The notes below the pieces were generated by a model. That model had not been told where the DNA came from and made no database searches. It saw only the letters and a list, made by a program, of their open reading frames with translations. The translations under genes were made by a program, and so were the position numbers. 40,001 bases of DNA from Prolixibacteraceae bacterium (GTDB taxonomy: Bacteria > Bacteroidota > Bacteroidia > Bacteroidales > Prolixibacteraceae): positions 1 to 40,001 of the forward strand of contig JAFGEV010000232.1 of assembly GCA_016931385.1 (NCBI GenBank). Reading direction: 5' to 3'. Shown piece by piece: positions 12,846 to 28,389 of the stretch (positions are counted from its first letter, which is position 1; each line of letters begins with the position of its first letter).

Positions 12846-14087
12846 TTAAGGTTCTAAAGCCGGGTTTCCGACTTTACCCAAGAACAGGATTGCCCCGGTA
12901 TCCCTTTCTGTAATGGCAAACAGGAAAGGGCGATCGCAGTGGAAATAAATTTTCTGTGGGCCCGAAGGGCCTGCACTTGTATTTTCAAAACCGATAATGG
13001 TAACCGCAGCCGCCTCGGTACCCTCTTCGTCAACTTCAATAAAGGTTTTGTGTTTAACAAAACTGATAAACAAATCACGGGCGGGGTTGATGCCGCTAAA
13101 ATCGGCCATGGCCGTAAATGCCAGCTTCATTCCCATTGCCTTTAAAAAATCGTTAAGGGTTTTTTCGTACTCAATTTTAAATTTCGGCAAACGAATATCG
13201 ATGTTTTCTGTTTCACTGAAATCGTTATTCCATTTTTCCCAGTTTTCAGCAGAAAAAAGGTTTATAACTTCTTCAACTGAATTGTTCCTGTCAGGCAACA
13301 AAACCATCATATTAAAATTCCCATCGCCATAAGGTAATTTAATGGCTGAAAAAATATCGTTCTTCAGATAATCTAACGTATCGATCCTGCCCATCATATC
13401 AACCTGAACGTAGTTGCCTTCTGAAATTTCAAATGAAAGCTCCTGGGTACTCTCAGGGTTGAATTCCTGGCTCCACGTACCGTTAAAATAGATGGCATTG
13501 ATGAGGAAAAGCACCATTTCGGGCGAAATATCATTAATGATCTCGGGGATTTTTTCGTGGGTTTTGTTGCTTACCCACTGGTTGATTTCACCAACCGTGC
13601 CGGGATCGCTAAAATCGGCTTCGTTTACTTCGGCATCGTAATGGGTTGAATTCACATCGAGGAAGCTTTGTTCCACATGGTAACGATCGCTGTACCAGAT
13701 TGAGTTGGCAATTTCCATGGCCACTTTCGGATCAACCGTAGTCAGTGCATCGATTAACGAACGGTAGGTTTCATTGATCTCGTCCCTTGTAAATTCATCA
13801 ATCCCCAGTGCTTCGGCCATTTCGGTTTTTGTTTCGGTTTCGGCACCGTTGTAGGCCATCGATAAAGCCATTGAGATGCTCAGGGGCGAGATCATGAAAT
13901 TGGTTTGCTCCTCGTTTTCATAAATACGCTTAAAGATATCGAGCCCGAATTCATTGTCGGCTTCCACAATTTTTTGTGATTTCAGGGTGACATCTATTTT
14001 TTTTGATTGAACATCATCACCTTTGTCGCACGAGAACATTGCGAGCAAAATGATTAATACGGGAAATAATAAAATTTGTGTTTTCAT
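12846..14087 (-). CDS. Serpin lipoprotein 1 (protease inhibitor)
   Basis: A full-length serpin of 413 residues. A lipoprotein signal ends at C20 (LLAMFSC), followed by DKGDD, an acidic tract like those that send Bacteroidota lipoproteins to the cell surface. Serpin landmarks are NFMISPLSISMALSMAYNGA, FLINAIYFNGTW, the inhibitory hinge EEGTEAAAVTI (P17 to P7), and RPFLFAITERDTGAILFLGK. Counting from the hinge puts P1-P1' at about T370-S371. The loop (FENTSAGPSGPQKIYFHC) is about six residues longer than in alpha-1-antitrypsin, so the true cleavage site is uncertain. It is the promoter-distal, most diverged member with serpin 5. Its 5' leader is homologous to part of the 17.0-kb spacer. Target protease unknown. 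Confidence 0.95.
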   Translation of the reverse strand: MKTQILLFPVLIILLAMFSCDKGDDVQSKKIDVTLKSQKIVEADNEFGLDIFKRIYENEEQTNFMISPLSISMALSMAYNGAETETKTEMAEALGIDEFTRDEINETYRSLIDALTTVDPKVAMEIANSIWYSDRYHVEQSFLDVNSTHYDAEVNEADFSDPGTVGEINQWVSNKTHEKIPEIINDISPEMVLFLINAIYFNGTWSQEFNPESTQELSFEISEGNYVQVDMMGRIDTLDYLKNDIFSAIKLPYGDGNFNMMVLLPDRNNSVEEVINLFSAENWEKWNNDFSETENIDIRLPKFKIEYEKTLNDFLKAMGMKLAFTAMADFSGINPARDLFISFVKHKTFIEVDEEGTEAAAVTIIGFENTSAGPSGPQKIYFHCDRPFLFAITERDTGAILFLGKVGNPALEP

Positions 14088-14401
14088 GGTTATATTATAT
14101 TTTGGTGTTTCTCTTTTTTATCCAAGGTTTTCTTTTGTGGCCGATACAGCTCGCTGCCTTTTTTCAGCGATGGTTGATCGGCCCGGGATTGTTTTATACC
14201 CTTTTAGTCACAGGGCGATGCCCTGTGTTATTTTACCCTTACAGGGTATAGGTCTCAGCCTAAAATGTTGTTTCAATCATTTAAAGAACGCTAATTTCAA
14301 ATCGGGCAGTTACCTATGTTCCCCCTTCTTCGCTGTCGCATAGCTTTAGCGGAGCGCAGCAGGGGGTTAGGGGGGCATTCTCCCTTAAGGGAGTCGGGGG
14401 C
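14088..14401. repeat. Spacer 1: hairpin-rich mosaic between serpins 1 and 2
   Basis: No gene. It contains a GGCCGAT/ATCGGCC element (14139-14190), a hairpin with 8-bp arms CACAGGGC/GCCCTGTG (14209-14227), a hairpin TACCCT/AGGGTA (14234-14248), a 23-bp block (14268-14290) identical to 17461-17483, and a CCCCCT-rich palindromic block next to the serpin 2 stop. The whole layout, including the leader at 14088-14120, recurs in expanded form at 16993-17580. It has no strong terminator, so read-through between serpins is possible. Confidence 0.8.
14139..14190. repeat. GGCCGAT palindromic element, copy A
   Basis: A 52-bp element with outer arms GGCCGAT and ATCGGCC and an inner pair CGCTG/CAGCG around CCTTTTTT. 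It ends CCGGGATT. The same plan is seen at 17095-17146 and 17323-17373. Confidence 0.8.
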
Positions 14402-15610
14402 TTATACCGGTTCCATCATCTTCCCTATAAATAAAATTGCCCCGGTTTCTTTCTCGGTTATGGCCCAAACAAAGGGTTTATTCGCAACAAACATATTCAC
14501 GGCGCTTCGCCACTCCATGGCCACAACAGTTGCCGCAGCAGCTTCAGTACCTTTTTCGTTTACATCGATAAAGGTGTTGTGCTGCACATAGTCGATCCAG
14601 ATATCGGTGTCGGTTGTTATCCCCTTGAAATTTGCCCGCGGATCAAAAGCAATTTCCATGCCCATGGCCGAAAGTATGTCGTTCAGCTTCATCTCAAATT
14701 CAGTTTTGAATTTTGGAAGCTGAAGTGTTGACAAATAAGTCATTGTATAGTTGCCCATCCACTGTTCCCATTTTTCCGGGGTTATTTCATTAATAACATC
14801 ATCGCAGGTTTTACTATGAGCTGGCAGCATCACAACTATGTTGAAGTTGCCATCGCCATAAGGCAGTTCGATGGAAGAAAACAACTCGTCAACCTGGTAA
14901 TTTACCGAGTCGGAAGCACACATCATGTCAACATCAATGGTCGTACCATCTTCTTTTGTAAAAGGTTGCTTACGAGTAAGTGTTTCATCAAATGAAGTTT
15001 TCCATGTTCCGTTGAAATAAATGGCATTCACCAGGAACATTACATGTGTAGGCTCAATTTCTTCAATCATATCGCTGATTTTGTCGTGGGTTTTATCTGC
15101 AATCCAGCCGTTGATGATCTCAAGGGCATCGGGGCTGCTAAAATCAAGCTCACTCACTTTTGCATCGTAATAGGTTTGATTCACCTCAATAAAATCAGGC
15201 AATACGTTCATATCGTCGCGGTACCAAATCGACTGTGCAATATCGAGGGTCACTTCCGGGTCGGCGGCCAGCAATGCATCCATAAGGTATTTGTACCCCT
15301 GGTTGATTTCGTTGGCAGTTAAACCACTCAGGTGCATGGCCTCTTGCATGGCCAGCTTTGTCTCTTCCTTCGCACCGTTATAAGTCATGCCCAATGCCAG
15401 TGAAACGCTCAATGGCGAGATGGTTACATTGCCGGATTCTTCCTGACAAATCCGCTGGAACAGGTCGATGCCCATCGAATTATCGGCTTCGACCAGGGTT
15501 TGTGACTTTTGATCGAGATCAGTAACCAATGGTTCATTATCATCTTTCTGGCACGAAACCACGAAAATGAATGTTGACAAAATCAATATTAGTAATGTTG
15601 TGGTTTTCAT
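14402..15610 (-). CDS. Serpin lipoprotein 2, Arg-Ser reactive site
   Basis: A 402-residue serpin with a lipoprotein signal ending at C20 (FIFVVSC). The following residues QKDDNE match the lysine plus two-acid surface-export pattern known from Capnocytophaga. The hinge NEKGTEAAAATVV is that of an inhibitory serpin. From P15 Gly to the KPF strand the loop has the same length as alpha-1-antitrypsin, so the reactive bond can be set with some confidence: P1 is R368 and P1' is S369 (MEWRSAVNM). Arg-Ser predicts inhibition of trypsin-like proteases, including gingipain- or clostripain-type Arg-specific enzymes. It is 5 bp downstream of serpin 3. Its C-terminus (FIGKMMEPV) and 3' spacer match serpin 4, evidence of a shared duplication. 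Confidence 0.95.
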   Translation of the reverse strand: MKTTTLLILILSTFIFVVSCQKDDNEPLVTDLDQKSQTLVEADNSMGIDLFQRICQEESGNVTISPLSVSLALGMTYNGAKEETKLAMQEAMHLSGLTANEINQGYKYLMDALLAADPEVTLDIAQSIWYRDDMNVLPDFIEVNQTYYDAKVSELDFSSPDALEIINGWIADKTHDKISDMIEEIEPTHVMFLVNAIYFNGTWKTSFDETLTRKQPFTKEDGTTIDVDMMCASDSVNYQVDELFSSIELPYGDGNFNIVVMLPAHSKTCDDVINEITPEKWEQWMGNYTMTYLSTLQLPKFKTEFEMKLNDILSAMGMEIAFDPRANFKGITTDTDIWIDYVQHNTFIDVNEKGTEAAAATVVAMEWRSAVNMFVANKPFVWAITEKETGAILFIGKMMEPV

Positions 15611-15615
15611 AATAA

Positions 15616-16839
15616 CTATTTGTAAGTTGGTTCATTAATGCGCCCGACAAATAAAATAGCACCTGTTTCTTTTTCGGTGATAGCATATATAAACGGGCGG
15701 TTTGCATGAAACTGAGGTGATGAAGGCATGGCTGTTTCAAGCATTGCAACTACCGTTGCAGCAGCAGCTTCGGTACCTTTTTCGCTTACATCAATGAAAG
15801 TGTTGTGTTGCACATAATCGATCCAGATTCCACCGTAGCCGTTAATCCCGCTAAAATCGGCTCCCCCGCCAAAAGCGATGCCCATGCCCATGTACGAGAG
15901 AATATCATTAAGTTTTATCTTGTACTCTGCCTTAAATTTTGGGAACATGATTTCCAGTTCGGAAACCGGATTAAATGCATCCATCCATTGTTTCCAGCTT
16001 TCAGGGGTCAGCTCACCGGCAATATCGTTGCAGGTTTTGTCCCCGTTGGGAAGTAGTACAACCATATTGAAATTGCCCTGACCATAAGGCATTTCAATTG
16101 CCGAGAAGAGTTCATTACTTTGATAGTTTACCGAATCGGTTTTGGCCATTATATCAACCTCGATGATGTTTCCATCTTCCTGGAAGAAACTTCCCTTGTA
16201 GGTATCCTTTTTATCAAATTTGTGGCTCCATTCGCCGTTAAAGTAAATGGCATTGATCAGGAACATAACATACTGGTTGTTTACTTCACTAATCATGTTT
16301 TTGATCTTATCGTGCGTTTTATCTTCAATCCAGCCGTTAATGATGTCTTTTGCATCGGAACGGCCAAAATCAAGCTCGTTGACCTCGGCATCGTAATAGG
16401 TTTCGTTCACCTCTTTAAAGGAGTCTAGAACATTGTACCCCATCCGGTACCAGATCGACTGGGCTGTTTCGAGGGTAACTTTCGGGTCGACTTCAAGTAA
16501 GGCAGCAACCAGGCTTTGGTACGATTGGTTGATCTCGTCGGTGGTCAATCCACTCAACCTCATGGCTTCTTCCATCGCTGTTTTTGTTTCACCTTCGGCC
16601 CCGTTGTACGTCATGGCCAGTGCCAGTGAAATGCTGAGGGGCGAGATGGTAAAATTCTCATCTTCTTCGGTAAGGATTTTTTTAAAAATATCGATACCAA
16701 ACTCATTGTCGGCCTCGACAAGCTGTTTCGATTTCAGGTCAAGGTCGATTTCTTTCGGAATAATGTCGTCACTTTTCTCGCACGAATTCGTTGCAAGTAA
16801 AAGGATTAATGCGGTAATAAAAAAAATTTGTGTTTTCAT
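15616..16839 (-). CDS. Serpin lipoprotein 3
   Basis: A 407-residue serpin. The lipoprotein signal ends at C20 (LLATNSC), followed by EKSDD. Core motifs are NFTISPLSISLALAMTYNGA, FLINAIYFNGEW, YVQHNTFIDV, the hinge SEKGTEAAAATVV and RPFIYAITEKETGAILFVGR. Counting from the hinge gives P1 T369 (LETAMPSS). The loop is two residues longer than standard, so a neighbouring A, M or S is also possible. This predicts a target with a small-residue (elastase-like) or unusual preference. It is closest to serpin 4 (GRSDA-DIINGWIEDKTHDKI in both). It starts after a 741-bp gap, so may have its own promoter, and is 5 bp upstream of serpin 2. Confidence 0.95.
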   Translation of the reverse strand: MKTQIFFITALILLLATNSCEKSDDIIPKEIDLDLKSKQLVEADNEFGIDIFKKILTEEDENFTISPLSISLALAMTYNGAEGETKTAMEEAMRLSGLTTDEINQSYQSLVAALLEVDPKVTLETAQSIWYRMGYNVLDSFKEVNETYYDAEVNELDFGRSDAKDIINGWIEDKTHDKIKNMISEVNNQYVMFLINAIYFNGEWSHKFDKKDTYKGSFFQEDGNIIEVDIMAKTDSVNYQSNELFSAIEMPYGQGNFNMVVLLPNGDKTCNDIAGELTPESWKQWMDAFNPVSELEIMFPKFKAEYKIKLNDILSYMGMGIAFGGGADFSGINGYGGIWIDYVQHNTFIDVSEKGTEAAAATVVAMLETAMPSSPQFHANRPFIYAITEKETGAILFVGRINEPTYK

Positions 16840-17094
16840 CTTATTAAAATTGTTTATTCATTCGGTATAAGATGTAACTCCCGATGAATCAGAGATCAGC
16901 GTTAGCTAATTTTAATCATTTTCCTTAGTGTACCTTAAAATGTTAAAATTGATTAACACGATTTCGCTAAGCTCAATTCATGGTCGTTTCATGGTTGTAA
17001 TGTATTTGGTGTTTCTTTTTTAAATAAAACAAGCCTAACCCATTGTTATTCGGGACTGTCAGGCCGGGTTTTCATATCCGACTTTTAAAACTGT

Positions 17095-17146
17095 GGCCGA
17101 TACAATATGCTTCCTCTTTTCAGCGGCGTTTGATCGGCCAGGGATT
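17095..17146. repeat. GGCCGAT palindromic element, copy B
   Basis: 52 bp with outer arms GGCCGAT/ATCGGCC, as in copy A. The inner part reads CTTCCTCTTTTCAGCGG, so the inner stem is weaker. It ends CAGGGATT. Confidence 0.8.
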
Positions 17147-17163
17147 GATATTGGCTTTTTCTT

Positions 17164-17189
17164 TTGCCCCGGCATAAATGCCGGGGCAA
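17164..17189. repeat. Perfect 12-bp palindrome
   Basis: TTGCCCCGGCAT, two A bases, then the exact complement ATGCCGGGGCAA. A very stable hairpin on either strand, not followed by a T-run, so a REP-like repeat rather than a clear terminator. Confidence 0.8.
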
Positions 17190-17236
17190 GTCAAATTACC
17201 TGGATAATTCCTCTTGAGAAATGTAACTTTAATTGC

Positions 17237-17254
17237 CTCCACATTTATGTGGAG
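17237..17254. repeat. Short palindrome with the same CAT-NN-ATG loop
   Basis: CTCCACAT, TT, ATGTGGAG: perfect 8-bp arms. Same loop plan as 17164-17189 with a different stem, suggesting a related family of hairpin repeats. Confidence 0.7.
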
Positions 17255-17322
17255 AAATTAATGAATGCACCTGAAAAAAGAGGGGGCTTTAGCCCAATTC
17301 CATTCCCGGGGTTTTTCCCTGA

Positions 17323-17373
17323 GGCCGATACAGGGGGCTGCCTTTTTTCAGCGCAGGGAGATCGGCCTGGGAT
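17323..17373. repeat. GGCCGAT palindromic element, copy C
   Basis: 51 bp with outer arms GGCCGAT/ATCGGCC and inner GGCTGCCTTTTTTCAGCG. It ends CTGGGAT. Lies 228 bp from copy B. Confidence 0.8.
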
Positions 17374-17580
17374 ACTATATGCCTTTTTAAATCCACGGGT
17401 TAAAACCCTTGGCTACAAAGACATAACCCCTATGGGGCTTTTGGCTACAACCCAAAGATTTTGTTTCAATCATTTAAAGAACGTCTCTACCTCCCGATAG
17501 ATCGGGATTGGCATCTCCAAAAACTCCCCCTTTCCGCGAGCGCCATAGCTATTCTGCGGAGGCGCTAGGGGGCTGGGGGG

Positions 17581-18825
17581 TTATACCGGCTCCATCATTT
17601 TGCCTATAAACAGGATTGCCCCTGTTTCTTTCTCGGTTATGGCGTAAATAAAAGGCTTATCCACCTTAAAATACATTGGCATTGCTGCATATTCCTTCAT
17701 GGCAACCACGGTTGCGGCGGCGGCCTCTGTGCCTTTTTCATTTACATCGATGAAAGTGTTGTGTTGTACATAGTCGATGTAAAGGTCACGACCTCCGTTA
17801 ATACCGCTAAAATCGGCATTGCCCATTTCAAAAGCAATGCCCATGCCCATGGCAGTAAGCACATCGTTCAGTTTTATTTCGTATTCTGCCTTGAATTTGG
17901 GTAACCAGATATTTATTTCATGAATCTTGCTCATCGAGGCCATCCAGTTTTTCCAGGCTTCTGCAGTCATTTCCTGTAAAATATCATCACAGGTTTTCCC
18001 TTCGGATGGGACAAGTGCAACCATATTGAAATTGCCCCGGCCATAAGGCAGTTCGATGGCCGAGAAATTATCACCGTACAACACACGTGCCGAATCGGAT
18101 TTCGACATCATATCAACCTTCATCACTGTGCCGTCTTCTTTGGTAAAATCGGCCTCGAAGGTGTTCTTCTTGTCGAATTTCTTTTTCCATTCGCCGTTGA
18201 AATAGATGGCATTGATAAGGAACATCACATGATCGGGGTCGATGCGTTTGATCATGTCCTGGATTTTATCGTGGGTTTTGTCCTCTATCCAACCATTAAT
18301 AATATCAAGTGCATCACTGCGGCCAAAATCAAGCGCGTTTACTTCGGCATCGTAATAGGTTTGGTTTACTTCTTTAAAATCATCCAGAACAGTTCGGTCC
18401 TCACGGTACCAAATCGACTGGGCAATTTCGAGCGTAACCAGCGGGTCGGCCTCCAACAGAGCTTTCACCAGGCTTTGATAAGCCAGGTTTATCTCTTCGG
18501 TTGTAAACCCGCTAATCCTGAGCGCTTCCTCCATTGCAGCTTTGGTTTCGGTTCGTGCGCCGTTATAGGTCATGGCCAAAGCCAGTGATACGCTTAAAGG
18601 CGAAATGGTATAATTCCCGTCTTCGATTTCGGAAATGAGCTTAAACATGTCAATACCAAACTCATTATCGGCTTCAACCAATTGTTGCGATTTCTGAGAA
18701 AGATTTATTTCGACAGGTTCATCAATATCGGAGTTGCAGGAGAACAGGGGCAGTGCTGTTAAAATTGCTGCTAACAACACAATGTGAATTTTTACCAGAC
18801 ACGACTTTTTGTTTATTTGTTTCAT
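17581..18825 (-). CDS. Serpin lipoprotein 4
   Basis: A 414-residue serpin. Its N-terminus is longer than the others (MKQINKKSCLVKIH precedes the hydrophobic stretch), with the lipoprotein cysteine at C30 (ALPLFSC) followed by NSDIDE. Motifs are NYTISPLSVSLALAMTYNGA, FLINAIYFNGEW, YVQHNTFIDV, the hinge NEKGTEAAAATVV and KPFIYAITEKETGAILFIGK. Counting from the hinge gives P1 Y379 (KEYAAMPM), which would suit chymotrypsin-like targets; the loop is one residue longer than standard, so A380 is possible. It begins 12 bp after the YD-like lipoprotein and is probably in the same transcript as serpin 5. Its 3' end and downstream spacer are homologous to those of serpin 2. Confidence 0.95.
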   Translation of the reverse strand: MKQINKKSCLVKIHIVLLAAILTALPLFSCNSDIDEPVEINLSQKSQQLVEADNEFGIDMFKLISEIEDGNYTISPLSVSLALAMTYNGARTETKAAMEEALRISGFTTEEINLAYQSLVKALLEADPLVTLEIAQSIWYREDRTVLDDFKEVNQTYYDAEVNALDFGRSDALDIINGWIEDKTHDKIQDMIKRIDPDHVMFLINAIYFNGEWKKKFDKKNTFEADFTKEDGTVMKVDMMSKSDSARVLYGDNFSAIELPYGRGNFNMVALVPSEGKTCDDILQEMTAEAWKNWMASMSKIHEINIWLPKFKAEYEIKLNDVLTAMGMGIAFEMGNADFSGINGGRDLYIDYVQHNTFIDVNEKGTEAAAATVVAMKEYAAMPMYFKVDKPFIYAITEKETGAILFIGKMMEPV

Positions 18826-18837
18826 GGCAATACGATT

Positions 18838-19668
18838 TTAATAGTGATAATATTCTTTAATAACGGTTTGATTGGGATATGTTTCGCTTTTAGATGTGGG
18901 ATACCCGAGCGAGTTGTATGTATATTCATAGGTAAAGGTTGAAGTGTATGCAACCGACCTAACGCCATCATCGTCGTAATTGTATGCAGTAACGACTTTT
19001 CGGATAACATTATTTTTCGATTTTGACCCAGGATGAACATCATAGGGAGCCTTTTGGGAATCGTAAGTATATTCCTCGGTTGAATAGAAAACCTTGAAGC
19101 CGTCTTCAAATGTATATACTTCAATTTTTTCGATGTTTCCATCATCATTAAAAAAGTAATCGTGATAAACAGGAAAATTATCTGCAGAAGGTTTGCCCGA
19201 ACTTATTGTCGATTGAACCAAATCAGTCACGCTATAATCATATTTCTGGGTTACTGAAAAATTGATATCGCTATTATCTTTTCCATAATCGTAATCGGTT
19301 TTAATTTCAGAAATACGGTTTTCCGAATCATATAAAAAGGTTGCTTCCACATCCTTACCCAAAGCCCCCGTCAGGCTCGACATATAAATAATGCCCGGCT
19401 GGTAACCGCTCATTTTAATAAGCCTGTCGTTAACATCGTATTTATAAATAAACTCGGCCTTTTCTTCGGGGGTGAAGTGTGATTCAATGTTCCAGCTTTT
19501 AACAAGCAAACCATTTTTATAAGTATATTCTGCGATGACATTATTAGACTCATTTTCAACCGATGAAATTTTCCCTTCGGATGAAAGAAGAGGATCGTAT
19601 ACGTCTTTATCACAGCTGTTGAAAAATAAAAATAAAGGTAAAGTAAGGATCAAAATCTTTGTCTTCAT
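18838..19668 (-). CDS. YD-repeat-like lipoprotein between serpins 4 and 5
   Basis: A 276-residue protein with a lipoprotein signal ending at C19 (LFLFFNSC), followed by DKDVYD. The rest is a string of short beta-hairpin repeats of YxYxxNGLxxKxx type (AEYTYKNGLLVKSW, FIYKYDVNDRLIKM, FLYDSENRISEIK, YFFNDDGNIEKIEVY, YTYNSLGYPTSK). They resemble the YD/RHS-like beta proteins, such as DUF4595-type, that are common as lipoproteins in Bacteroidota. No catalytic residues are visible. It is 43 bp after serpin 5 and 12 bp before serpin 4, so it belongs to the serpin transcript. Its role is unknown; a surface-exposed binding or scaffold protein is possible. Confidence 0.85.
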   Translation of the reverse strand: MKTKILILTLPLFLFFNSCDKDVYDPLLSSEGKISSVENESNNVIAEYTYKNGLLVKSWNIESHFTPEEKAEFIYKYDVNDRLIKMSGYQPGIIYMSSLTGALGKDVEATFLYDSENRISEIKTDYDYGKDNSDINFSVTQKYDYSVTDLVQSTISSGKPSADNFPVYHDYFFNDDGNIEKIEVYTFEDGFKVFYSTEEYTYDSQKAPYDVHPGSKSKNNVIRKVVTAYNYDDDGVRSVAYTSTFTYEYTYNSLGYPTSKSETYPNQTVIKEYYHY

Positions 19669-19711
19669 AATTATGCAATTGCTATGTTTTTATTATCATT
19701 CATTTCAATAA

Positions 19712-20944
19712 TTATTCAGAGGTTGTAGGGTCGAATACTTTTCCGATAAATAAAACAGAATGCGTATCTTCTTCAACAATGGCAAACAGAAACGACTTGT
19801 CGATGCGGATAATCTGCCCGGGGCCAACCGATGTAAGCCCAATGGTTACCGAAGTGGCCGCGGCTGCCTCACTTCCTTCTTCATCGGTTTTTATGTAGGT
19901 TTTGTGATTAACCTCCGAGATGAATACTTCTTTATCGGTGATTTGTGAAAAATCGGCAACAAATGGGGTGAAAGCATCGATAATTCCCAATGCTTTTAAT
20001 TCCACTGTTAATTCGTTATCATAGCTGAATTCAAATTTCGGTAGCCAAATTTCCTGATCGACAGGGGTCATATTCCGGAGCATTTCAAAGTCGGTGTTTT
20101 TCAATTCAGGCAAAATATCAGCGGTAGTATATCCCTCTTCGGGAAGGTATATCAGCATATTGAACTTACCTGCCCCATAAGGAAGTTCAATAACGGAATA
20201 TTTGTCTTCATTGTAATAATTTAAGGCAACTTCACCCATCATTGTCGGAACCTGCTTCTCGGTACCGTTTTCAAGCCGGAAAGTCATGGGTTCGGTATTG
20301 GTTTTTTTAAATTCTGTTTTCCACTTTGCTTTAAAGTAAACAGCATTGATTAAAAACATTACATCATCACTGTTGACCTGATCGATAATTTCATCGATCT
20401 TTCCTTTTGTTTTATTATCAACCCAGTTGTTTATGTCGTTTTTTGCTTTTTCGGCTTTAGCCGGATCGTAAGCGTTTACTTCGGCATTGTAATAATCCTG
20501 GTTTACTTCAACGAAGCTGTTCATCGGAGGCATATCGTTCCGGTACCACATTGAATTGGCAATTGAAAGCTCCACTTTGGGATCATGGCTGATAAGTGCA
20601 TCAACCAGGCCTTTATTGCTTTGATTTATTTCTTCAGGAAGAAAATCGACAAAACCCAGCGCGTTTTGCATCTCGGCATAGGTATTCCCGGCTGCCCCGT
20701 TTAATGCCATCGACAATGCCTGGCTTACACTAAGCGGCGATACCATAATGTTTTTCTCACTGTTTTCGGCTGTCAAAACAACTTCAAAAAAACTGAATCC
20801 GAATTGATTGTTGCTTTCGACAAGCAGGGCCGATTTCTGGTCAAGGTCGATGGGTGTTGGTGTAACATTGTTATCAAACCATTCACACGATGGTAAAAGG
20901 AACAAAAAGATTATCAGGATTGATTGATGTATTATTATTTTCAT
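19712..20944 (-). CDS. Serpin lipoprotein 5, promoter-proximal
   Basis: A 410-residue serpin with a lipoprotein signal ending at C20 (LFLLPSC), followed by EWFDNN. Motifs are NIMVSPLSVSQALSMALNGA, FLINAVYFKAKW, VNHKTYIKTDEEGSEAAAATS (hinge, P14 Ser instead of Thr) and KSFLFAIVEEDTHSVLFIGK. Counting from the hinge gives P1 T371 (TIGLTSVGPG); the neighbouring L370 is also possible. The loop is two residues longer than standard. It is the most distinct member and the first gene downstream of the candidate ECF promoter at 20995-21023. It is followed at 43 bp by the YD-like lipoprotein. Confidence 0.95.
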   Translation of the reverse strand: MKIIIHQSILIIFLFLLPSCEWFDNNVTPTPIDLDQKSALLVESNNQFGFSFFEVVLTAENSEKNIMVSPLSVSQALSMALNGAAGNTYAEMQNALGFVDFLPEEINQSNKGLVDALISHDPKVELSIANSMWYRNDMPPMNSFVEVNQDYYNAEVNAYDPAKAEKAKNDINNWVDNKTKGKIDEIIDQVNSDDVMFLINAVYFKAKWKTEFKKTNTEPMTFRLENGTEKQVPTMMGEVALNYYNEDKYSVIELPYGAGKFNMLIYLPEEGYTTADILPELKNTDFEMLRNMTPVDQEIWLPKFEFSYDNELTVELKALGIIDAFTPFVADFSQITDKEVFISEVNHKTYIKTDEEGSEAAAATSVTIGLTSVGPGQIIRIDKSFLFAIVEEDTHSVLFIGKVFDPTTSE

Positions 20945-20994
20945 ATTGTTTGTTTTTTATGGTTTATCTAAATTTTCTAAAACTGCATCTTTAT

Positions 20995-21023
20995 GATGAA
21001 AGTTTTCCACCTGAGGTTGCGTT
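20995..21023 (-). promoter_or_regulatory. Candidate ECF-sigma promoter of the serpin array
   Basis: On the minus strand: AACGCAACC (21023-21015), 16 bases, then CATCAT (20998-20993). The AAC-rich -35 and the short -10 with TC are typical of ECF promoters. The predicted start lies about 43 bases before the serpin 5 ATG. It matches the opposite promoter at 21192-21222 in the -35, in spacing and in CATC. Confidence 0.6.
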
Positions 21024-21191
21024 AAAATGAAAAGTTAGATAAAAATTATTGGTATTCTGTAAAGTAAATAAATAAAAACACATAGAAATATTTGGTTAAA
21101 GCCCTTTTAAAAGTTGTAATTCTGCAACTGATACTATTGAAAAAATGAATTCCTAATTAAAAAATGAAACCATAACTCATTACAATCAACT

Positions 21192-21222
21192 AACGCAACC
21201 TTTTCATAAATCAATCCATCTA
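21192..21222 (+). promoter_or_regulatory. Candidate autoregulated ECF-sigma promoter
   Basis: AACGCAACC (21192-21200), 16 bases, then CATCTA (21217-21222), with a predicted start about 20 bases before the lipoprotein ATG at 21249. An ECF sigma factor commonly drives its own operon, which supports this being its recognition site. Confidence 0.65.
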
Positions 21223-21248
21223 CTTTCAGAAATCAAAACAAAGTCAAC

Positions 21249-21725
21249 ATGAAGTGGAAACTGTTTTTTGGGGCCGCTATTGTCCTGCTTACCGGATGTA
21301 ACAAGGAGCCGGTGAACCTTGCCGCTGATATCGAGATGATAAATTCCGACCAGTCGGGTTGCAACGGATGGAAGAGCACATCACTTGAAAGTGAAGAAGA
21401 ATATTTTATTATCGAACCCACAGGAGAAGGGATTTTCAGGATTGAGCACTTCAACACGATGTTTAATTGTTGCCTGCCCCAGGGGATCGAAATTGAAATT
21501 TACGGAATTGGCGACACCATTTTCTTTTCTGAAAAAGAAAAAGTTCCGGGCGAATGCAGATGTATTTGTCCCTACGATATTTCTGCGGATATCACCAACA
21601 CTGTTGATGATGAATACGTTCTTTGTTTTATAAAGGATAACGATCGCCTGGGTGCAATATCACTTTTTTTCGACGATGAAATGTATGAACGCTTTACTGT
21701 TTCAGATTTGTCAAAATACCCCTAA
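21249..21725 (+). CDS. Small Cys-rich lipoprotein heading the ECF operon
   Basis: 158 residues with a lipoprotein signal ending at C17 (IVLLTGC), followed by NKEP. The mature part has seven cysteines: one near SGCNGW, a CC pair in MFNCCLPQG, and a CRCIC cluster in GECRCICPYDISADI, which could form disulfides or bind metal. I do not recognise a named family; short lipoproteins with a CxCxYDI-like segment occur in other Bacteroidota. It starts about 20 bases after the predicted ECF promoter and is followed 41 bp later by the sigma factor. A sensor role or a target role in the sigma system is an inference from position only. Confidence 0.82.
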   Translation: MKWKLFFGAAIVLLTGCNKEPVNLAADIEMINSDQSGCNGWKSTSLESEEEYFIIEPTGEGIFRIEHFNTMFNCCLPQGIEIEIYGIGDTIFFSEKEKVPGECRCICPYDISADITNTVDDEYVLCFIKDNDRLGAISLFFDDEMYERFTVSDLSKYP

Positions 21726-21766
21726 TTTTGCTTTAATTTTGCACCCTGAAAATCAGAATTTAGCGA

Positions 21767-22324
21767 TTGGAAGAACTTACACAATTAATTGAAGATTGTA
21801 AGCTGGGAAAACGAAATGCCCAGGCCCGTTTGTACCAGCAATATGCCCCGGTTTTGTTTGGGATATGCCTTCGCTATTCCCGCGATCAAACCGAAGCTGA
21901 AGATACTTTGCACGAAGGATTTATTACAATCTTAAATAAAATCGGACAATATGCATACAAGGGTTCTTTCGAAGGGTGGTTGAAGCGGATCATGATTAAC
22001 ACATCGCTCGAAAAATTCAGAAACCGATACAGGTTACAAATTGTTGAAGATATTTCAAAGTATGACATCGAACCGTCGGAAAACGATGTTTACTCCGATC
22101 TAAACACCGAAACACTATTAAAACTGGTTTCTGAATTACCCCCTCGTTACCGGATGGTATTTAACATGTATGCCATTGATGGTTATTCGCATAACGAAAT
22201 CTCCGAACAACTTGGCATCGCTATTGGAACGTCGAAATCGAACCTTGCAAGGGCAAGAAAAATTTTACAGGAGAGGATAATTGAAATGGGATTTTTAGAA
22301 AAGATTTATGCAAAAGAACAATAA
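21767..22324 (+). CDS. ECF RNA polymerase sigma factor (Bacteroidota ECF21/Das-like)
   Basis: A 185-residue extracytoplasmic-function sigma factor. Region 2 spans about 20-90 (ARLYQQYAPVLFGICLRYSR, DTLHEGFITILNKIGQY, FEGWLKRIMINTSLEKFR). Region 4 spans about 120-170, with the helix-turn-helix GYSHNEISEQLGIAIGTSKS. The start is TTG at 21767: an in-frame TAG lies two codons upstream and no ATG precedes region 2. A rare start codon may keep its level low. Its last 17 bases overlap the next gene, a predicted membrane-spanning anti-sigma, the usual sign of a coupled sigma/anti-sigma pair. Assignment to the ECF21 group is by gene context rather than by a profile search. Confidence 0.94.
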   Translation: MEELTQLIEDCKLGKRNAQARLYQQYAPVLFGICLRYSRDQTEAEDTLHEGFITILNKIGQYAYKGSFEGWLKRIMINTSLEKFRNRYRLQIVEDISKYDIEPSENDVYSDLNTETLLKLVSELPPRYRMVFNMYAIDGYSHNEISEQLGIAIGTSKSNLARARKILQERIIEMGFLEKIYAKEQ

Positions 22325-23747
22325 AATAGAAAGTATTGATCAGCATTTCAGCTCGAAACTTTCAAATCACAAGGTGGTTCCTCCACCTGAAATTTGGGAA
22401 GGAATCGTTGCAGAAATGGATACGCGAAAACGGAAGAAACGTGCAATCTGGATAATTGCTTTGTCTTCGGCAGCATCTCTTCTTCTGGCTTTCCTTGCCG
22501 GATGGTATTTCTCAGAGAATATTTCTGAAACAGAAAATCAGGTTGCCATTGAAATGTTTTCAAATCAGGATAAAGGTGTTAACGCACAAGACGAAAATAA
22601 AATTGGAATTCATAAAAATGATGCAGATGCAAATCCGCCCGAGATGGTTTCAATAAACGAGCTAGCCCCCGATGTTCAGCAATTTGATAATTTGATTAAA
22701 ACTTCGGATTCAAAAAACAATAAAAATCAAAATCATGACATTCGGATCGAAGCATCAGGTTCTGAAATAAAAGCTGAAAAGCTTGGCGTTCTTAAACCGT
22801 TAAAAATCTTTTTATCAAAAACCGGAAACCACTCCCCACAACTCATTGCTATGAATACAGATGAGTTTTCAGATTATGACAGGAAAATCATCGAAGCAAA
22901 TCTCAGAAACATGCCCAAAGAAATCCCCCGGGAAAATAAAGGAGCATGGCTTGTTGGGCTGCAGGCATCGCCGGCTTACAGGTTCGAACAAGGTTCCACA
23001 CAAACAGAAAAAGCCGATATCATTTATAGTGTAAACCAAACCGGAAGGGCACCAAAGTATATTACCAACATGACAGGCGGTGTAAAATTTGAATACAAAA
23101 CCGGGAAACGTTTTTCTATACAAAGTGGGGTAAATTATGGCGAAATAGCCCAAAGCAACGGGAATGTCGGAGTCTCATTCCTTGGTCATAACTGGCTGAA
23201 CGACTATATCAACAGTGATGAGTTTTATTATGCCGGAGAGACTGAAAAAAATTCGGTTCCTGTACCCAATAATGCCGTTGTGGCTACAAACATTGGCCTT
23301 GCAAATATTGAAATGCCCGAAGGAACCCAAATTGAACTTACAAACCGCGAGCCGGAAAGCAATTATGCTTCTGAAATTATTCAAAACACCGAGTTTGAAC
23401 AACAGGCAGGATATATCGAGGTGCCACTGATTATGACTTATACCATTTTACAGAAAAGGATTGGCTTATACGTACTGGGTGGGATTAACACGAACTTTCT
23501 TACATCGAACAGCGTTGAACTTGTAAATAACAATGAAGTTGTAGGATCGGGAAAAATTGAAGGGTTAAATCCGCTAACTTTCAGCAGCAGCCTGGGCATG
23601 GGGCTCAATTATTCTTTGGGCAGCCATTTCAATCTTTCGGTTGAGCCAACCATGAAGATTATGCTGAACTCGCTCAACAGCGAAGCAATTTACGAAACCA
23701 GGCCTTACACTGTTGGGATTTATACAGCATTATTGTACAGGTTTTAA
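22308..23747 (+). CDS. Predicted dual-membrane anti-sigma factor (Dma-like)
   Basis: 479 residues. The N-terminus (1-43, HFSSKLSNHKVVPPPEIWEGI) is polar and basic and fits a cytoplasmic sigma-binding segment. A single inner-membrane helix lies at about 46-67 (AIWIIALSSAASLLLAFLAG). A low-complexity periplasmic linker runs to about 210. The rest is an outer-membrane beta-barrel: AWLVGLQASPAYRF, FEYKTGKRFSIQSGVNYG, YIEVPLIMTYTI, IGLYVLGGINTNF, SSLGMGLNYSLGSHFNLSVEP, ending in YRF with a terminal Phe. This matches the architecture of the dual-membrane-spanning anti-sigma factors (Dma/Das pairs) described in Bacteroides thetaiotaomicron, where they control outer-membrane vesiculation. Here it probably holds the preceding sigma factor until an envelope signal arrives. 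Confidence 0.85.
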   Translation: MQKNNKIESIDQHFSSKLSNHKVVPPPEIWEGIVAEMDTRKRKKRAIWIIALSSAASLLLAFLAGWYFSENISETENQVAIEMFSNQDKGVNAQDENKIGIHKNDADANPPEMVSINELAPDVQQFDNLIKTSDSKNNKNQNHDIRIEASGSEIKAEKLGVLKPLKIFLSKTGNHSPQLIAMNTDEFSDYDRKIIEANLRNMPKEIPRENKGAWLVGLQASPAYRFEQGSTQTEKADIIYSVNQTGRAPKYITNMTGGVKFEYKTGKRFSIQSGVNYGEIAQSNGNVGVSFLGHNWLNDYINSDEFYYAGETEKNSVPVPNNAVVATNIGLANIEMPEGTQIELTNREPESNYASEIIQNTEFEQQAGYIEVPLIMTYTILQKRIGLYVLGGINTNFLTSNSVELVNNNEVVGSGKIEGLNPLTFSSSLGMGLNYSLGSHFNLSVEPTMKIMLNSLNSEAIYETRPYTVGIYTALLYRF

Positions 23748-24524: not shown

Positions 24525-25466
24525 ATGAAAAGGAAGATGCAAATAAATATCGTTCAATTTTTACCATTTCTGGCTTTTCTTTTATTTTTTAACGGAGTGA
24601 ACATTTATGCCGGAAACCTGCCAGATGAAACAGATAAAAAGAAAGTTGTTTTTCAGGAAGTAAATTCTCCTCCCCTGCCCGATAAACTTTTTTTTGCAGG
24701 GGAAGAAGTTCCGCTATGGAATTTCGATATCAGGGAAAACCTCGACCGTGAACTGATGGTTAATTGCTACTTTCATTCTCAAACCTTGCGTTATATAAAA
24801 CTTGCGCCCCGTTATTTCGAGATTATTGAACCCATTTTAAAGAACGACACAGTCCCCGATGATTTTAAATACCTTGCTCTTGCCGAAAGCGGATTCGACC
24901 CAAAAGCAATCTCTCCGGCCGGTGCAGCCGGTATTTGGCAACTGATGAAACCTGCCGCGAAAGAATACGGCCTGGAAATCAACGATGAAGTTGATGAAAG
25001 GTACCACATCGAGAAAGCAAGCCAGGCTGCCTGCAAGTATTTAAAAGAGTCGTATGCAAGATATGGCGACTGGACCACGGTTGCTGCTTCGTACAATGCA
25101 GGCCGTAACGGGATCGACAGGCAGGTTGAACGACAAAAGGAAAGCCATTATTACAACCTATTGTTGTCGGAAGAAACCATGCGTTATGTTTTCAGGATTC
25201 TAGCGCTGAAAACAATACTTGAAGATCCCGAAAAATATGGCTTCATTGTTTCAAATCACGAGAAATACCCTTCAATTCCATATGAAATTGTTAAAGTTGA
25301 CAGCTCGGTAACCAGCTTTGCCGATTTTGCAAACAGCTTCGATACAAACTATAAACTTTTAAAGATGCTTAATCCATGGCTTAGGGAAGCGGAGCTTAAA
25401 AATTCCCAGGGTAAAACCTATGAAATTAAGATCCCAAAAGGTAAATTTCGCAAAGGCCTCCCCTAA
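24525..25466 (+). CDS. MltD-like membrane-bound lytic murein transglycosylase
   Basis: 313 residues. A signal peptide covers about 1-30 (FLPFLAFLLFFNGVNIYAG). The SLT family 1 catalytic domain has the glutamate in YLALAESGFDPKAISPAGAAG, followed by IWQLMKPAAKEYGL, and the YNAGRNGI motif. It cleaves peptidoglycan between MurNAc and GlcNAc, leaving a 1,6-anhydro product. Unlike classical MltD it has no complete LysM repeats; the tail (YKLLKMLNPWL, TYEIKIPKGKF) looks like a single LysM-like or stub module. Transcribed alone upstream of uvrA. Candidate -7 box TATTTTTG at 24403-24410, quite far upstream. Confidence 0.88.
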   Translation: MKRKMQINIVQFLPFLAFLLFFNGVNIYAGNLPDETDKKKVVFQEVNSPPLPDKLFFAGEEVPLWNFDIRENLDRELMVNCYFHSQTLRYIKLAPRYFEIIEPILKNDTVPDDFKYLALAESGFDPKAISPAGAAGIWQLMKPAAKEYGLEINDEVDERYHIEKASQAACKYLKESYARYGDWTTVAASYNAGRNGIDRQVERQKESHYYNLLLSEETMRYVFRILALKTILEDPEKYGFIVSNHEKYPSIPYEIVKVDSSVTSFADFANSFDTNYKLLKMLNPWLREAELKNSQGKTYEIKIPKGKFRKGLP

Positions 25467-25554: not shown

Positions 25555-28389
25555 ATGGGCGAAGAGAAAAAAAGCCATGATGTAATAAAGGTACGGGGAG
25601 CCAGGGAACACAACCTCCATAACATAAACGTTGATATTCCCCGGAACAAGCTAACCGTAATAACCGGCTTAAGCGGGAGCGGAAAATCTTCACTGGCCTT
25701 TGATACCATTTACGCCGAAGGTCAAAGACGTTATATCGAGACGTTTTCGGCCTATGCCCGCTCTTTCCTTGGCAACATGGAACGCCCCGATGTGGACGAG
25801 ATATCGGGTTTGAGCCCTGTGATTTCCATCGAACAAAAATCGACCAATAAAAACCCCCGCTCAACTGTTGGCACTGTTACTGAAATTTACGACTTCCTCC
25901 GATTGTTGTATGCCCGGGCTGCCGAGGCTTATTCATACAATACCGGAGAAAAAATGGTTAAATATTCCGAGCAGAAAATCCTTGACCTGATCAGGGAAAA
26001 ATTCCATGGAAAAAAAATCCTGCTCCTTGCTCCGGTAATAAAAGGGCGCAAGGGCCATTACCGTGAATTGTTTGAGCATATTCGCCGCAAAGGATTTATT
26101 TATGTTCGAATAGATGGGCTTGTAAAAGAATTGGCCCATGGGATGAAACTCGACCGCTACAAAAACCACTTTATTGAAATCGTGGTCGACAAAATGGTGG
26201 TCGACGAAGCTTCAGACAAACGCCTGCGCGATTCGGTGGCCACAGCAATGAAACAGGGTGACGGGATCACCATGGTTCTCGACAACGAAACTGGCGGGGT
26301 GAGTTATTACAGCCGCCATCTGATGTGCCCTGTTACCGGTATTTCGTATGCCGAACCCGCTCCCCACAATTTTTCCTTCAACTCGCCCCAGGGAGCCTGT
26401 CCGAAATGCAACGGACTGGGTGTTATACCGCAACTCGACATGGATAAGATCATCCCCGATAAAGCATCAACCATTTATAAGGGGGGTATCGCCCCTCTGG
26501 GCGCTTACCGTAATTCGGTAATATTCTGGCAAATTGAGGCGATTGCCGATTTATACGGCTTCACACTTAAGACGCCAATAAATGAGATACCTGAAGATGC
26601 ACTCGATAAAATCCTGTATGGCACAAGCGACCGCATCCAGTTGAAAAATTCGCCACTTGGGGCAAACATAAATTACTTCATGACCTACGAAGGAGTTGTA
26701 AAATATGTTGAAAACCAACGCGAAGACAACTATTCTGATAAAGCTAAAAGCTGGGCAAACCAATATGTAAAAGAAGTAAGCTGCCCTGCCTGCGAAGGTC
26801 AACGGTTAAAAAAAGAATCGCTTTGGTTTAAAATAGATAACAAAAGCATATCCGATGTAAGCCATATGGACCTTGTTGAACTGAACGAGTGGCTTACCGG
26901 ACTTGAAAACAGGTTAAACGAACGCCAGAGACTTATCGGTCAGGAAGTAATCAAGGAAATTCGTGACCGGCTGAAGTTTATGCTTGATGTTGGCCTTGAA
27001 TACCTTGCCCTCGACCGTGCAGCCAAAACCCTTTCGGGGGGCGAATCGCAACGCATAAGGCTGGCAACACAAATCGGCTCGCAACTGGTCAATGTACTAT
27101 ACATCCTCGATGAACCAAGCATCGGGCTGCACCATCGCGACAACCTGAAACTCATCAATTCACTCGAAAAACTTCGTGATACAGGCAACTCAGTTATTGT
27201 TGTTGAGCATGACAAGGATATGATGCTTAATGCCGATTACCTTGTCGACCTGGGGCCTTTTGCCGGAAGGCATGGCGGAAAAGTAATGGGGGCGGGCTTA
27301 CCTGAAGAAATCCTGAAAGGGAACTCGCTTACCTCGTTGTACCTCAGGGGTGAGAAAAAAATTGAAGTGCCTGTTTCAAGGCGAAAAGGGAAAGGCACTT
27401 CACTAGTGCTAAAAGGGTGCAGGGGGAATAATCTTCAGAATGTTACTGCTGAATTTCCATTGGGAAAATTTATTTGTGTTACCGGCGTATCGGGCAGTGG
27501 AAAATCGACCCTGGTAAATGAAACGCTCCAGCCAATATTAAGCCAACATTTTTACCGCTCGACGAAAGATCCGCTTGTATATGATTCCATCGAAGGAATT
27601 GAAAAGATTGACAAAGTAGTGCAGGTCGACCAGTCGCCCCTGGGCCGCACACCGCGTTCGAATCCTGTAACCTATACCGGGGTATTTTCAAATATCAGGG
27701 AACTTTTTACCCAATTACCCGAGTCGAAGATCAGGGGCTACAAGCCAGGCCGGTTTTCATTTAATGTAAAGGGTGGACGTTGTGAAGAATGCCAGGGCGG
27801 CGGCATGAAACTGATCGAGATGAACTTCCTGCCCGATGTATACGTGCACTGCGACAAATGCAACGGAAAACGCTACAACCGTGAAACCCTCGAAGTGCGG
27901 TTCAAAGGAAAATCGATCAGCGATGTACTTGACATGACCATTAACCAGGCCGTTGAATTCTTTGAGAACATGCTGAAGATTTTGCATAAGCTAAAAACCC
28001 TTCAGGAAGTTGGGCTTGGCTACCTTACACTGGGACAATCGTCGACCACCATTTCCGGCGGCGAAGCCCAGCGGGTAAAACTGGCCTCCGAGCTGTCGAA
28101 ACGCGACACCGGCAAAACCCTGTACATTTTAGACGAACCTACAACCGGCCTCCACTTCGAGGACATAAAAGTACTGCTTGATGTGCTGAACAAACTCGTT
28201 GATAAGGGAAATACGGTAATCGTTATCGAGCACAACATGGAAGTGATCAAAGTGGCCGACCATATCATCGATATTGGCCCTGACGGAGGAAGAAAGGGAG
28301 GAAAAATTGTAGCCACAGGCACACCTGAAGAAGTAGCTGCAAATAAGAAATCGTTTACAGGGCAGTATTTAAAAGGAGAGCTGGAGTAA
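25555..28389 (+). CDS. uvrA: Excinuclease ABC subunit A
   Basis: 944 residues, the normal length. This is the damage-recognition ATPase of nucleotide excision repair, working with UvrB. Two ABC modules are visible: Walker [15 protein letters not shown] (about 37) with signature [17 protein letters not shown], and Walker [11 protein letters not shown] with signature [17 protein letters not shown] and [16 protein letters not shown]. The second zinc module is intact ([24 protein letters not shown]). In the first module the expected CxxC reads CPVT ([19 protein letters not shown]), followed by a normal CPKC, so one zinc ligand is replaced by Thr. The start [21 protein letters not shown] fits the family. 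Confidence 0.98.

Follow-up and report, generated by a model that had tools for sequence, protein, structure and literature searches.

Genes for serpins, the protease-inhibitor family that includes human antithrombin, were found back to back with an operon for an extracytoplasmic function (ECF) sigma factor and its predicted anti-sigma factor in a Prolixibacteraceae bacterium and many of its relatives, and we consider it probable that this operon is an envelope switch of the EcfO-Reo/Das1-Dma1 type with the serpin operon as a linked output. The stretch analyzed, hereafter the window, comprises positions 1 to 40,001 of JAFGEV010000232.1 (assembly GCA_016931385.1), one of the contigs of a 4.59-Mb genome in 448 contigs that is 86% complete. 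Judged from the DNA, the wiring of the two operons to each other is well supported, and the matching promoters, paired in many species, suggest activation of the serpins by the switch. A switch of this kind with a lipoprotein regulon is already known; the serpin output is new. A preliminary description of the same DNA had stated that no described system was known to link these parts, and none linking serpins to an ECF sigma factor was found among the matches listed from the literature searched, which leaves out preprints and most subscription papers. Of the two papers containing both terms, one concerns mouse retina, and the other (PMC5121618) has them in its references alone.

The features concerned are listed below (a slash in a loop sequence follows the predicted P1 residue; G001 is a genome of the same genus).

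12846-14087, minus strand: serpin lipoprotein 1, 413 aa; Pfam PF00079, E 3e-117; loop EEGTEAAAVTIIGFENT/S, predicted P1 Thr; G001 ortholog 85% identical.
14402-15610, minus strand: serpin lipoprotein 2, 402 aa; Pfam E 2.9e-112; loop ..MEWR/S, predicted P1 Arg; CQKDDNE after the lipobox; identical loop in G001.
15616-16839, minus strand: serpin lipoprotein 3, 407 aa; Pfam E 5.1e-114; loop ..MLET/A.
17581-18825, minus strand: serpin lipoprotein 4, 414 aa; Pfam E 4e-115; loop ..MKEY/A, predicted P1 Tyr (Phe in G001).
18838-19668, minus strand: RHS-like lipoprotein, 276 aa, between serpins 4 and 5; RHS_repeat E 6e-4, under the Pfam cut-off.
19712-20944, minus strand: lead serpin lipoprotein 5, 410 aa; Pfam E 8.1e-105; loop ..IGLT/S; the sole window serpin directly behind an ECF-type promoter.
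20993-21024 (to CAT, 20996-21024), minus strand: serpin-facing ECF-type promoter, TAACGCAACC-N16-CATCAT; conserved in relatives.
21191-21222 (to CAT, 21191-21219), plus strand: sigma-operon-facing ECF-type promoter, TAACGCAACC-N16-CATCTA; orthologs carry a similar autopromoter whether or not serpins are present.
21249-21725, plus strand: small Cys-rich lipoprotein, 158 aa; FNCC and CxCxC motifs; without a Pfam family.
21767-22324, plus strand: ECF sigma factor, 185 aa, TTG start; Sigma70_r2/r4_2; TIGR02937.
22308-23747, plus strand: predicted dual-membrane anti-sigma factor, 479 aa; OMP_b-brl_2 just over the cut-off; transmembrane helix at about 46-64, disordered tether to about 182, C-terminal outer-membrane barrel.

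The five minus-strand open reading frames (ORFs) between 12846 and 20944 matched the Pfam Serpin model PF00079 from position 1 or 2 to the end of its 370 positions (E 8e-105 to 3e-117), and a lipobox cysteine was found in all five by a regular expression. The divergent plus-strand trio at 21249-23747 encodes the Cys-rich lipoprotein, the ECF sigma factor and the 479-residue barrel protein. The Pfam and TIGR02937 matches confirmed the parts and coordinates given in the preliminary description, namely five full-length serpin lipoproteins, a sixth lipoprotein, and a divergent lipoprotein/ECF/barrel operon. The motif TAACGCAACC-N14-18-CAT occurs once in each direction in the intergenic region, both times with N16, and the rest of the window lacks it; 0.01 occurrences were expected by chance, and none of 100 shuffles gave two. 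The matching outward promoters described before were recovered, both sharing ACGCAACC-N16-CAT, and the start sites then proposed, 20987 and 21229, would fit, each lying some 7 nt past its CATC element.

The pairing was followed through 61 genomes, the window genome and 60 relatives. Serpin matches were present in 35 of them, 34 over the Pfam cut-off, and 44 serpin loci from these 34 genomes were inspected (43 fetched plus the window; the weak match in genome G057 was left out). A divergent ECF homolog lay within 1.5 kb in 24 of the 44 loci, one per genome. The adjacency, whose absence from relatives had been named beforehand as evidence against a link, thus recurs in 24 of the 34 serpin-bearing genomes, the source genome included. 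Searching with a 21-sequence sigma alignment, we found a single close sigma ortholog (at least 251 bits; next match, 221 bits) in 38 of the 61 genomes; 24 of these orthologs are paired with a serpin, as are 24 of 29 when only genomes having both are counted. Class-wide, serpins are rarer (35 of 345 genomes at E ≤ 1e-40), and the same divergent pair was found, by coordinates, in two genomes outside the order of the window (G232 and G358). Among the best 80 of 588 named stretches encoding sigma relatives, some of which are probably contigs already counted (e.g., Sunxiuqinia indica, which is contig C22 of G035), 18 are accompanied by a divergently oriented serpin gene no more than 1.5 kb away; these include loci of three named species of Sunxiuqinia (S. 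indica, S. dokdonensis, and S. elliptica; L242, L243, and L248) and of two metagenome bins of Draconibacterium, and at one of the 18 (L300) there is an overlap of 115 bp between the called ORFs. Those among the 80 that are titled Flavobacteriaceae or its genera have no divergent serpin within the flanks (up to 6 kb). The group carrying serpins and switch is made up mostly of environmental bacteria. On a tree of 138 sigma factors, in which some contigs probably appear twice under different ids, 10 changes of the pairing label are required, versus a mean of 33 in shuffles; the 38 rows labeled as paired are at least two too few, the tree mislabeling L255 and L284 as unpaired (both serpins are divergent and run off the contig). 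The pairing is therefore clustered and old, and was lost or gained several times.

The promoters are conserved together with the genes. A strict promoter, ACGCAAC-N15-17-C(A/G)TC, was scanned for in the 24 intergenic regions of the paired loci (9,838 bp, including short extensions). It faces the sigma factor in 21 of the regions, the serpin in 21, and both in 18, whereas a first-order random model predicts 0.013 sites over all 24 regions in either direction. In five of the six regions lacking a strict pair, the side without a strict site has a near-consensus one (L036, L039, L038, L045, and L042), and the scan found no site towards the sigma factor, strict or near-consensus, in the intergenic region of L080. 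A looser form, CGCAAC-N14-18-C(A/G)TC, sought between 500 bp ahead of the ORF and 60 bp inside it, lies upstream of 22 of 24 lead serpins, none of 13 non-lead serpins, and three of 24 serpins without a divergent ECF neighbor (two in G043 and one in G050); the 61 ORFs in this count include fragments (L057 and L060). Such a motif also precedes the sigma factor in all eight orthologs examined among the 14 without an adjacent serpin, as it does in 59 of the 80 named stretches. Genome-wide, the 24 paired genomes gave 114 strict hits versus six reversed-pattern controls, and the other 37 genomes gave 35 versus 29; read from the list, 30 of the 114 belong to the pairs themselves, whose promoters served to define the motif, and the remaining 84 lie elsewhere.

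In all 24 paired loci the sigma gene is followed, with a gap of -37 to +7 bp, by a gene for a protein of 451-519 aa; its hydrophobic peak, the presumed transmembrane helix, starts at residue 41-55 in all 24, and its C-terminal residue is Phe in 21. The model of the window protein, made from a 21-row alignment, is of moderate confidence (mean predicted local distance difference test score (pLDDT), 63; predicted template modeling score (pTM), 0.49) and has helices at 9-19 and 27-85, residues 71-182 under pLDDT 50, and barrel strands at 213-478. A Foldseek search with it returned OmpA-type barrels (OmpA itself with a TM-score of 0.68 by target and 0.28 by query, E 3e-7). The anti-sigma factor is thus predicted to have the Dma/Reo architecture of cytosolic helices, a membrane helix, a disordered tether, and an OmpA-like barrel. 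Alignment by hhalign with six anti-sigma factors of another family (f26, perhaps Bacteroidaceae) in the same order gave 99.6% (E 3.7e-24). A NigD gene is divergent from the homologous sigma/anti-sigma pair in three of five f26 genomes (G092, G133, and G199; Pfam NigD_C, E 6e-23 to 1e-33); none was found at the two f26 loci of G230 (L322 and L327), and those of G259 (L323 and L328) were left out.

Two described systems resemble the one found here. In EcfO-Reo of Bacteroides fragilis and Phocaeicola vulgatus, the anti-sigma factor spans all compartments from the cytoplasm to an outer-membrane barrel, the regulon includes NigD lipoproteins (one nigD tag adjoins ecfO by number), and induction follows exposure to the outer-membrane-acting toxins BcpT and Bd-A, with responses also to oxygen and the mouse gut (PMC9308784, PMC13114119). 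The present system shares with it the ECF sigma factor, a predicted cytoplasm-to-outer-membrane-barrel anti-sigma factor, and, in relatives, the association with NigD, and differs in having a serpin in the divergent position, often followed by a NigD-like gene; the word serpin occurs in neither paper. In Das/Dma of Bacteroides thetaiotaomicron, the order of anti-sigma domain, transmembrane helix, disordered tether, and barrel is the one predicted here; nigD1 is induced in the dma1 mutant, and the dma2 operon has a further gene (PMC13088901). Unlike in our locus, the described outputs of that system are outer-membrane vesicle formation and polysaccharide loci, and the word serpin has no occurrence in the paper. 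The serpin of Bifidobacterium breve is protease-inducible and under the control of a neighboring two-component system (PMC8012564); it is another serpin gene with a neighboring signal system, and the only such case met with in the literature searched, but an actinobacterial two-component system rather than an ECF/anti-sigma pair.

The genes behind the motif elsewhere also point to the envelope. Fifty strict sites outside the serpin/sigma regions were taken from genomes G000, G001, G004, G006, G008, G009, G025, G026, G028, and G029 (ten more there were left out), and 46 have an ORF within 350 bp downstream. By simple rules of our own, 29 of the 46 products are predicted lipoproteins and 11 have other signal peptides, versus 20 and 28, respectively, of 147 background ORFs surrounding them in these stretches (for lipoproteins, Fisher p 2e-10). 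The Pfam families in 38 of the 46 proteins include NigD (two proteins), VIT/VWA, outer-membrane protein (OMP) barrels, and LVIVD; the motif precedes NigD in L121 and L135. In the source genome, further motif sites lie before a relative of the 158-aa lipoprotein (contig C115) and before a divergent lipoprotein/secreted-protein pair (C251). A NigD-like gene stands behind the serpins, on the same strand and within about 1 kb, in 11 of the 24 paired loci (of nine scanned, seven exceeded the NigD_C cut-off, and those of L072 and L051 were below it), and none was seen in the window array. Since NigD lies opposite several of the f26 pairs and serpins lie here, the divergent slot appears to be held by NigD in one family and, in the other, by serpins that a NigD-like gene often accompanies.

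The predicted architecture, the anti-sigma homology, and the occurrence of NigD both opposite homologous pairs and behind serpins are the grounds on which we assign the system to the EcfO-Reo/Das1-Dma1 type. The anti-sigma factor would hold the ECF sigma factor at the inner membrane with its barrel in the outer membrane, and disturbance of the outer membrane or of the barrel surface loops would free the sigma factor. The latter would then read ACGCAACC-N15/16-C(A/G)TCTA promoters, namely its own, the one ahead of the lead serpin, and others preceding further genes for surface lipoproteins and OMPs. The serpins, displayed as surface lipoproteins, would act as single-use traps for proteases reaching the damaged cell, and their array would have diversified in the genus of the window to P1 Thr, Arg, and Tyr. 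General outer-membrane damage is a likelier cue than a protease alone, because the motif precedes many lipoprotein and OMP genes, including NigD, and because of the stimuli to which EcfO-Reo responds.

Several observations weigh against this assignment or narrow it. Nine of the 14 unpaired sigma orthologs are in genomes without any serpin match (in the other five the serpins sit elsewhere), so serpins are not an obligate output. The ACGCAACC (ACGCAAC) motif was not seen within the 1.5-kb flanks of the NigD-bearing f26 loci. Among the Pfam families listed for the 38 motif-downstream proteins (25 of 26; the VIT domain is not counted as an inhibitor), no other protease-inhibitor family was recognized. 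At least one further neighbor is shared by 132 of 267 locus pairs from different genera (135 share none), so that inherited synteny explains part of the adjacency, and we dropped the claim of fully context-independent conservation on this account. Finally, the looser motif is absent from the 500 bp upstream of four of the five window serpins, only the lead serpin having it.

The last point bears on how much of the array is controlled. The preliminary description had the sigma factor inducing the whole serpin set; for the lead serpin the conserved adjacency and matched promoters favor this, and for the rest of the array the position of the only motif tells against it. There is close to an even chance that the reach of the switch extends no further than the lead serpin, the RHS-like lipoprotein, and serpin 4, with serpins 1-3 as separate units under other control, a question of scope that is compatible with the envelope switch proposed above. 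Behind the lead serpin, the ORF coordinates leave 43 bp to the RHS-like lipoprotein and then 12 bp to serpin 4, and larger gaps precede serpin 3 (741 bp) and serpin 1 (314 bp); because of these two gaps, a single transcript across the five serpins is no more than a possibility. In G001, too, the motif occurs only before the ortholog of the lead serpin, and a weak minus-strand terminator-like site lies inside the 741-bp gap (17439-17425). On the other side, the serpins stand in tandem on the same strand, so that co-transcription might extend further, and terminator-like sites over the region are little above chance (19 found versus 12.4 expected).

The cue was also considered. The preliminary description had the barrel sensing protease attack or envelope damage at the surface. 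As a dedicated protease sensor, in which proteases would cut the barrel surface loops or the tether and release the sigma factor specifically for serpins, the protein now appears an unlikely candidate, although serpins are its recurrent physical neighbor and the low-confidence loops of the model (289-318 and 343-356), together with the disordered tether, offer plausible cleavage sites, and the serpin of B. breve is a precedent. The motif set is broad and the sigma orthologs persist in genomes without serpins, while the published relative, EcfO-Reo, answers to BcpT, Bd-A, oxygen, and the gut. The idea of a dedicated anti-protease regulon was rejected for want of any further inhibitor among the families listed; with a broad motif set of mostly lipoprotein and secreted products, the switch instead looks like an envelope-lipoprotein regulator of which serpins are a linked output. 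A protease-antiprotease loop, in which foreign or own proteases cut the anti-sigma factor at its tether or exposed loops, the freed sigma factor makes NigD-like lipoproteins and serpins of several specificities, and the serpins trap the protease and turn the signal off, is in our view rather improbable.

That another ECF paralog drives the serpin promoter, or that several share it, also has little probability. The source genome contains 13 ECF matches at E ≤ 1e-15, and crosstalk between Dma loci has been suggested in B. thetaiotaomicron (PMC13088901, section 7); however, the motif precedes the adjacent sigma factor's own operon, also in the examined orthologs lacking an adjacent serpin, and its enrichment tracks the genomes having the pair. 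Inherited synteny without serpin regulation, to which the shared neighbors lend some weight, is very improbable, since the serpin-facing strict motif is present in 21 of 24 regions against the 0.013 sites expected, and the three motif-bearing serpins of G043 and G050 lie away from the sigma factor. Chance adjacency was rejected in view of the recurrence of the pair and the matched promoters.

The neighbors on the anti-sigma side form an old syntenic block, recurring there in several genera; they comprise two genes that are putatively lytic-transglycosylase-like (24525-25466) and UvrA-like (25555-28389).

The serpins themselves have features of inhibitors. The hinge consensus of inhibitory serpins is ExGTEAAAA (PMC8233489), and in the window three serpins have this sequence exactly and two have one substitution. 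With the G of GTEAA counted as P15, P1 is predicted to be Thr in 28 of the 34 hinge-recognized serpins of paired loci; in the window it is Thr in three, Arg in serpin 2, and Tyr in serpin 4. Among solved structures, serpin 2 comes closest to miropin of Tannerella forsythia (5ncs, E 2e-86; also 5nct, 5ncu, and 5ncw), which has the same hinge and, by our own count, a Thr-Ser step at the same loop position. Our loci differ from it in their tandem arrays with differing P1 residues, and no regulatory link between miropin and an ECF sigma factor was found in the literature searched. In the window and G001, the four serpins common to both have very similar loops (Arg/Arg; Tyr/Phe), and those of the paralogs differ; this combination suggests targets that are distinct and stay the same, and not a rapid arms race, as far as loop sequences can indicate. 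Acidic residues near the cysteine of a lipoprotein are an export-signal rule, and in the window serpins these residues vary from CQKDDNE to CEWFDNN. Five serpin matches occur only in the window genome and its genus-mate; the remaining 59 of the 61 genomes have at most three, which agrees with the earlier remark that bacterial serpins are usually single or few.

Homologs of the RHS-like lipoprotein are present in the serpin loci L063, L080, and L239, the last two probably being one contig. At L057 (G004, contig C175, 3758-4992), where both promoters match the consensus, the lead serpin is split into two ORFs by one in-frame stop, a possible pseudogene or assembly error. Both large gaps of the window array contain an intergenic repeat of about 78 nt with GGCCGAT/ATCGGCC ends (14114-14191, 17092-17147, and 17320-17373), which has only one match elsewhere in the genome (C132) and is possibly debris of serpin-unit duplication.

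The 158-aa lipoprotein gave a confident, beta-rich model (mean pLDDT, 82.6), with which no PDB match was obtained at E ≤ 0.001. It has nine relatives in all: three are encoded between serpin and sigma factor, three follow the motif, and three are neighbors of serpins. Twelve columns are invariant (FNCC...CxCxC) in nine members of the family (21249-21725 of the window, L061, L079, L126, L114, L181, L028, L033, and L010).

Two further arrangements of the motif were observed. In L114 (G001, contig C60), four tandem copies about 3 kb apart (495, 3318, 6421, and 9752) each precede a small secreted or lipoprotein gene by about 190 nt, and another copy lies at 1419 of L113; three of the L114 genes encode near-identical leader peptides, and one is a member of the Cys-rich family. 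A second back-to-back promoter pair, which separates the gene of a propeller-like lipoprotein from that of a small protein, secreted or of the outer membrane, occurs in the source genome, G006, and G026 (L062, 1265-1329; L148, about 3110-3121; L149, about 3131-3143). A 227-aa lipoprotein behind the motif in L131/L144 was considered as a subtilase propeptide from the appearance of its C-terminus, and Pfam and PDB searches gave no support.

The precise promoter consensus makes the regulon of such a switch predictable. If the feedback loop outlined above were true, the NigD proteins would be part of a surface coat that guards against attack. For bacterial serpins and NigD lipoproteins alike, the question of their role gains a testable context, a response to outer-membrane damage, in cultured Prolixibacteraceae such as Sunxiuqinia.

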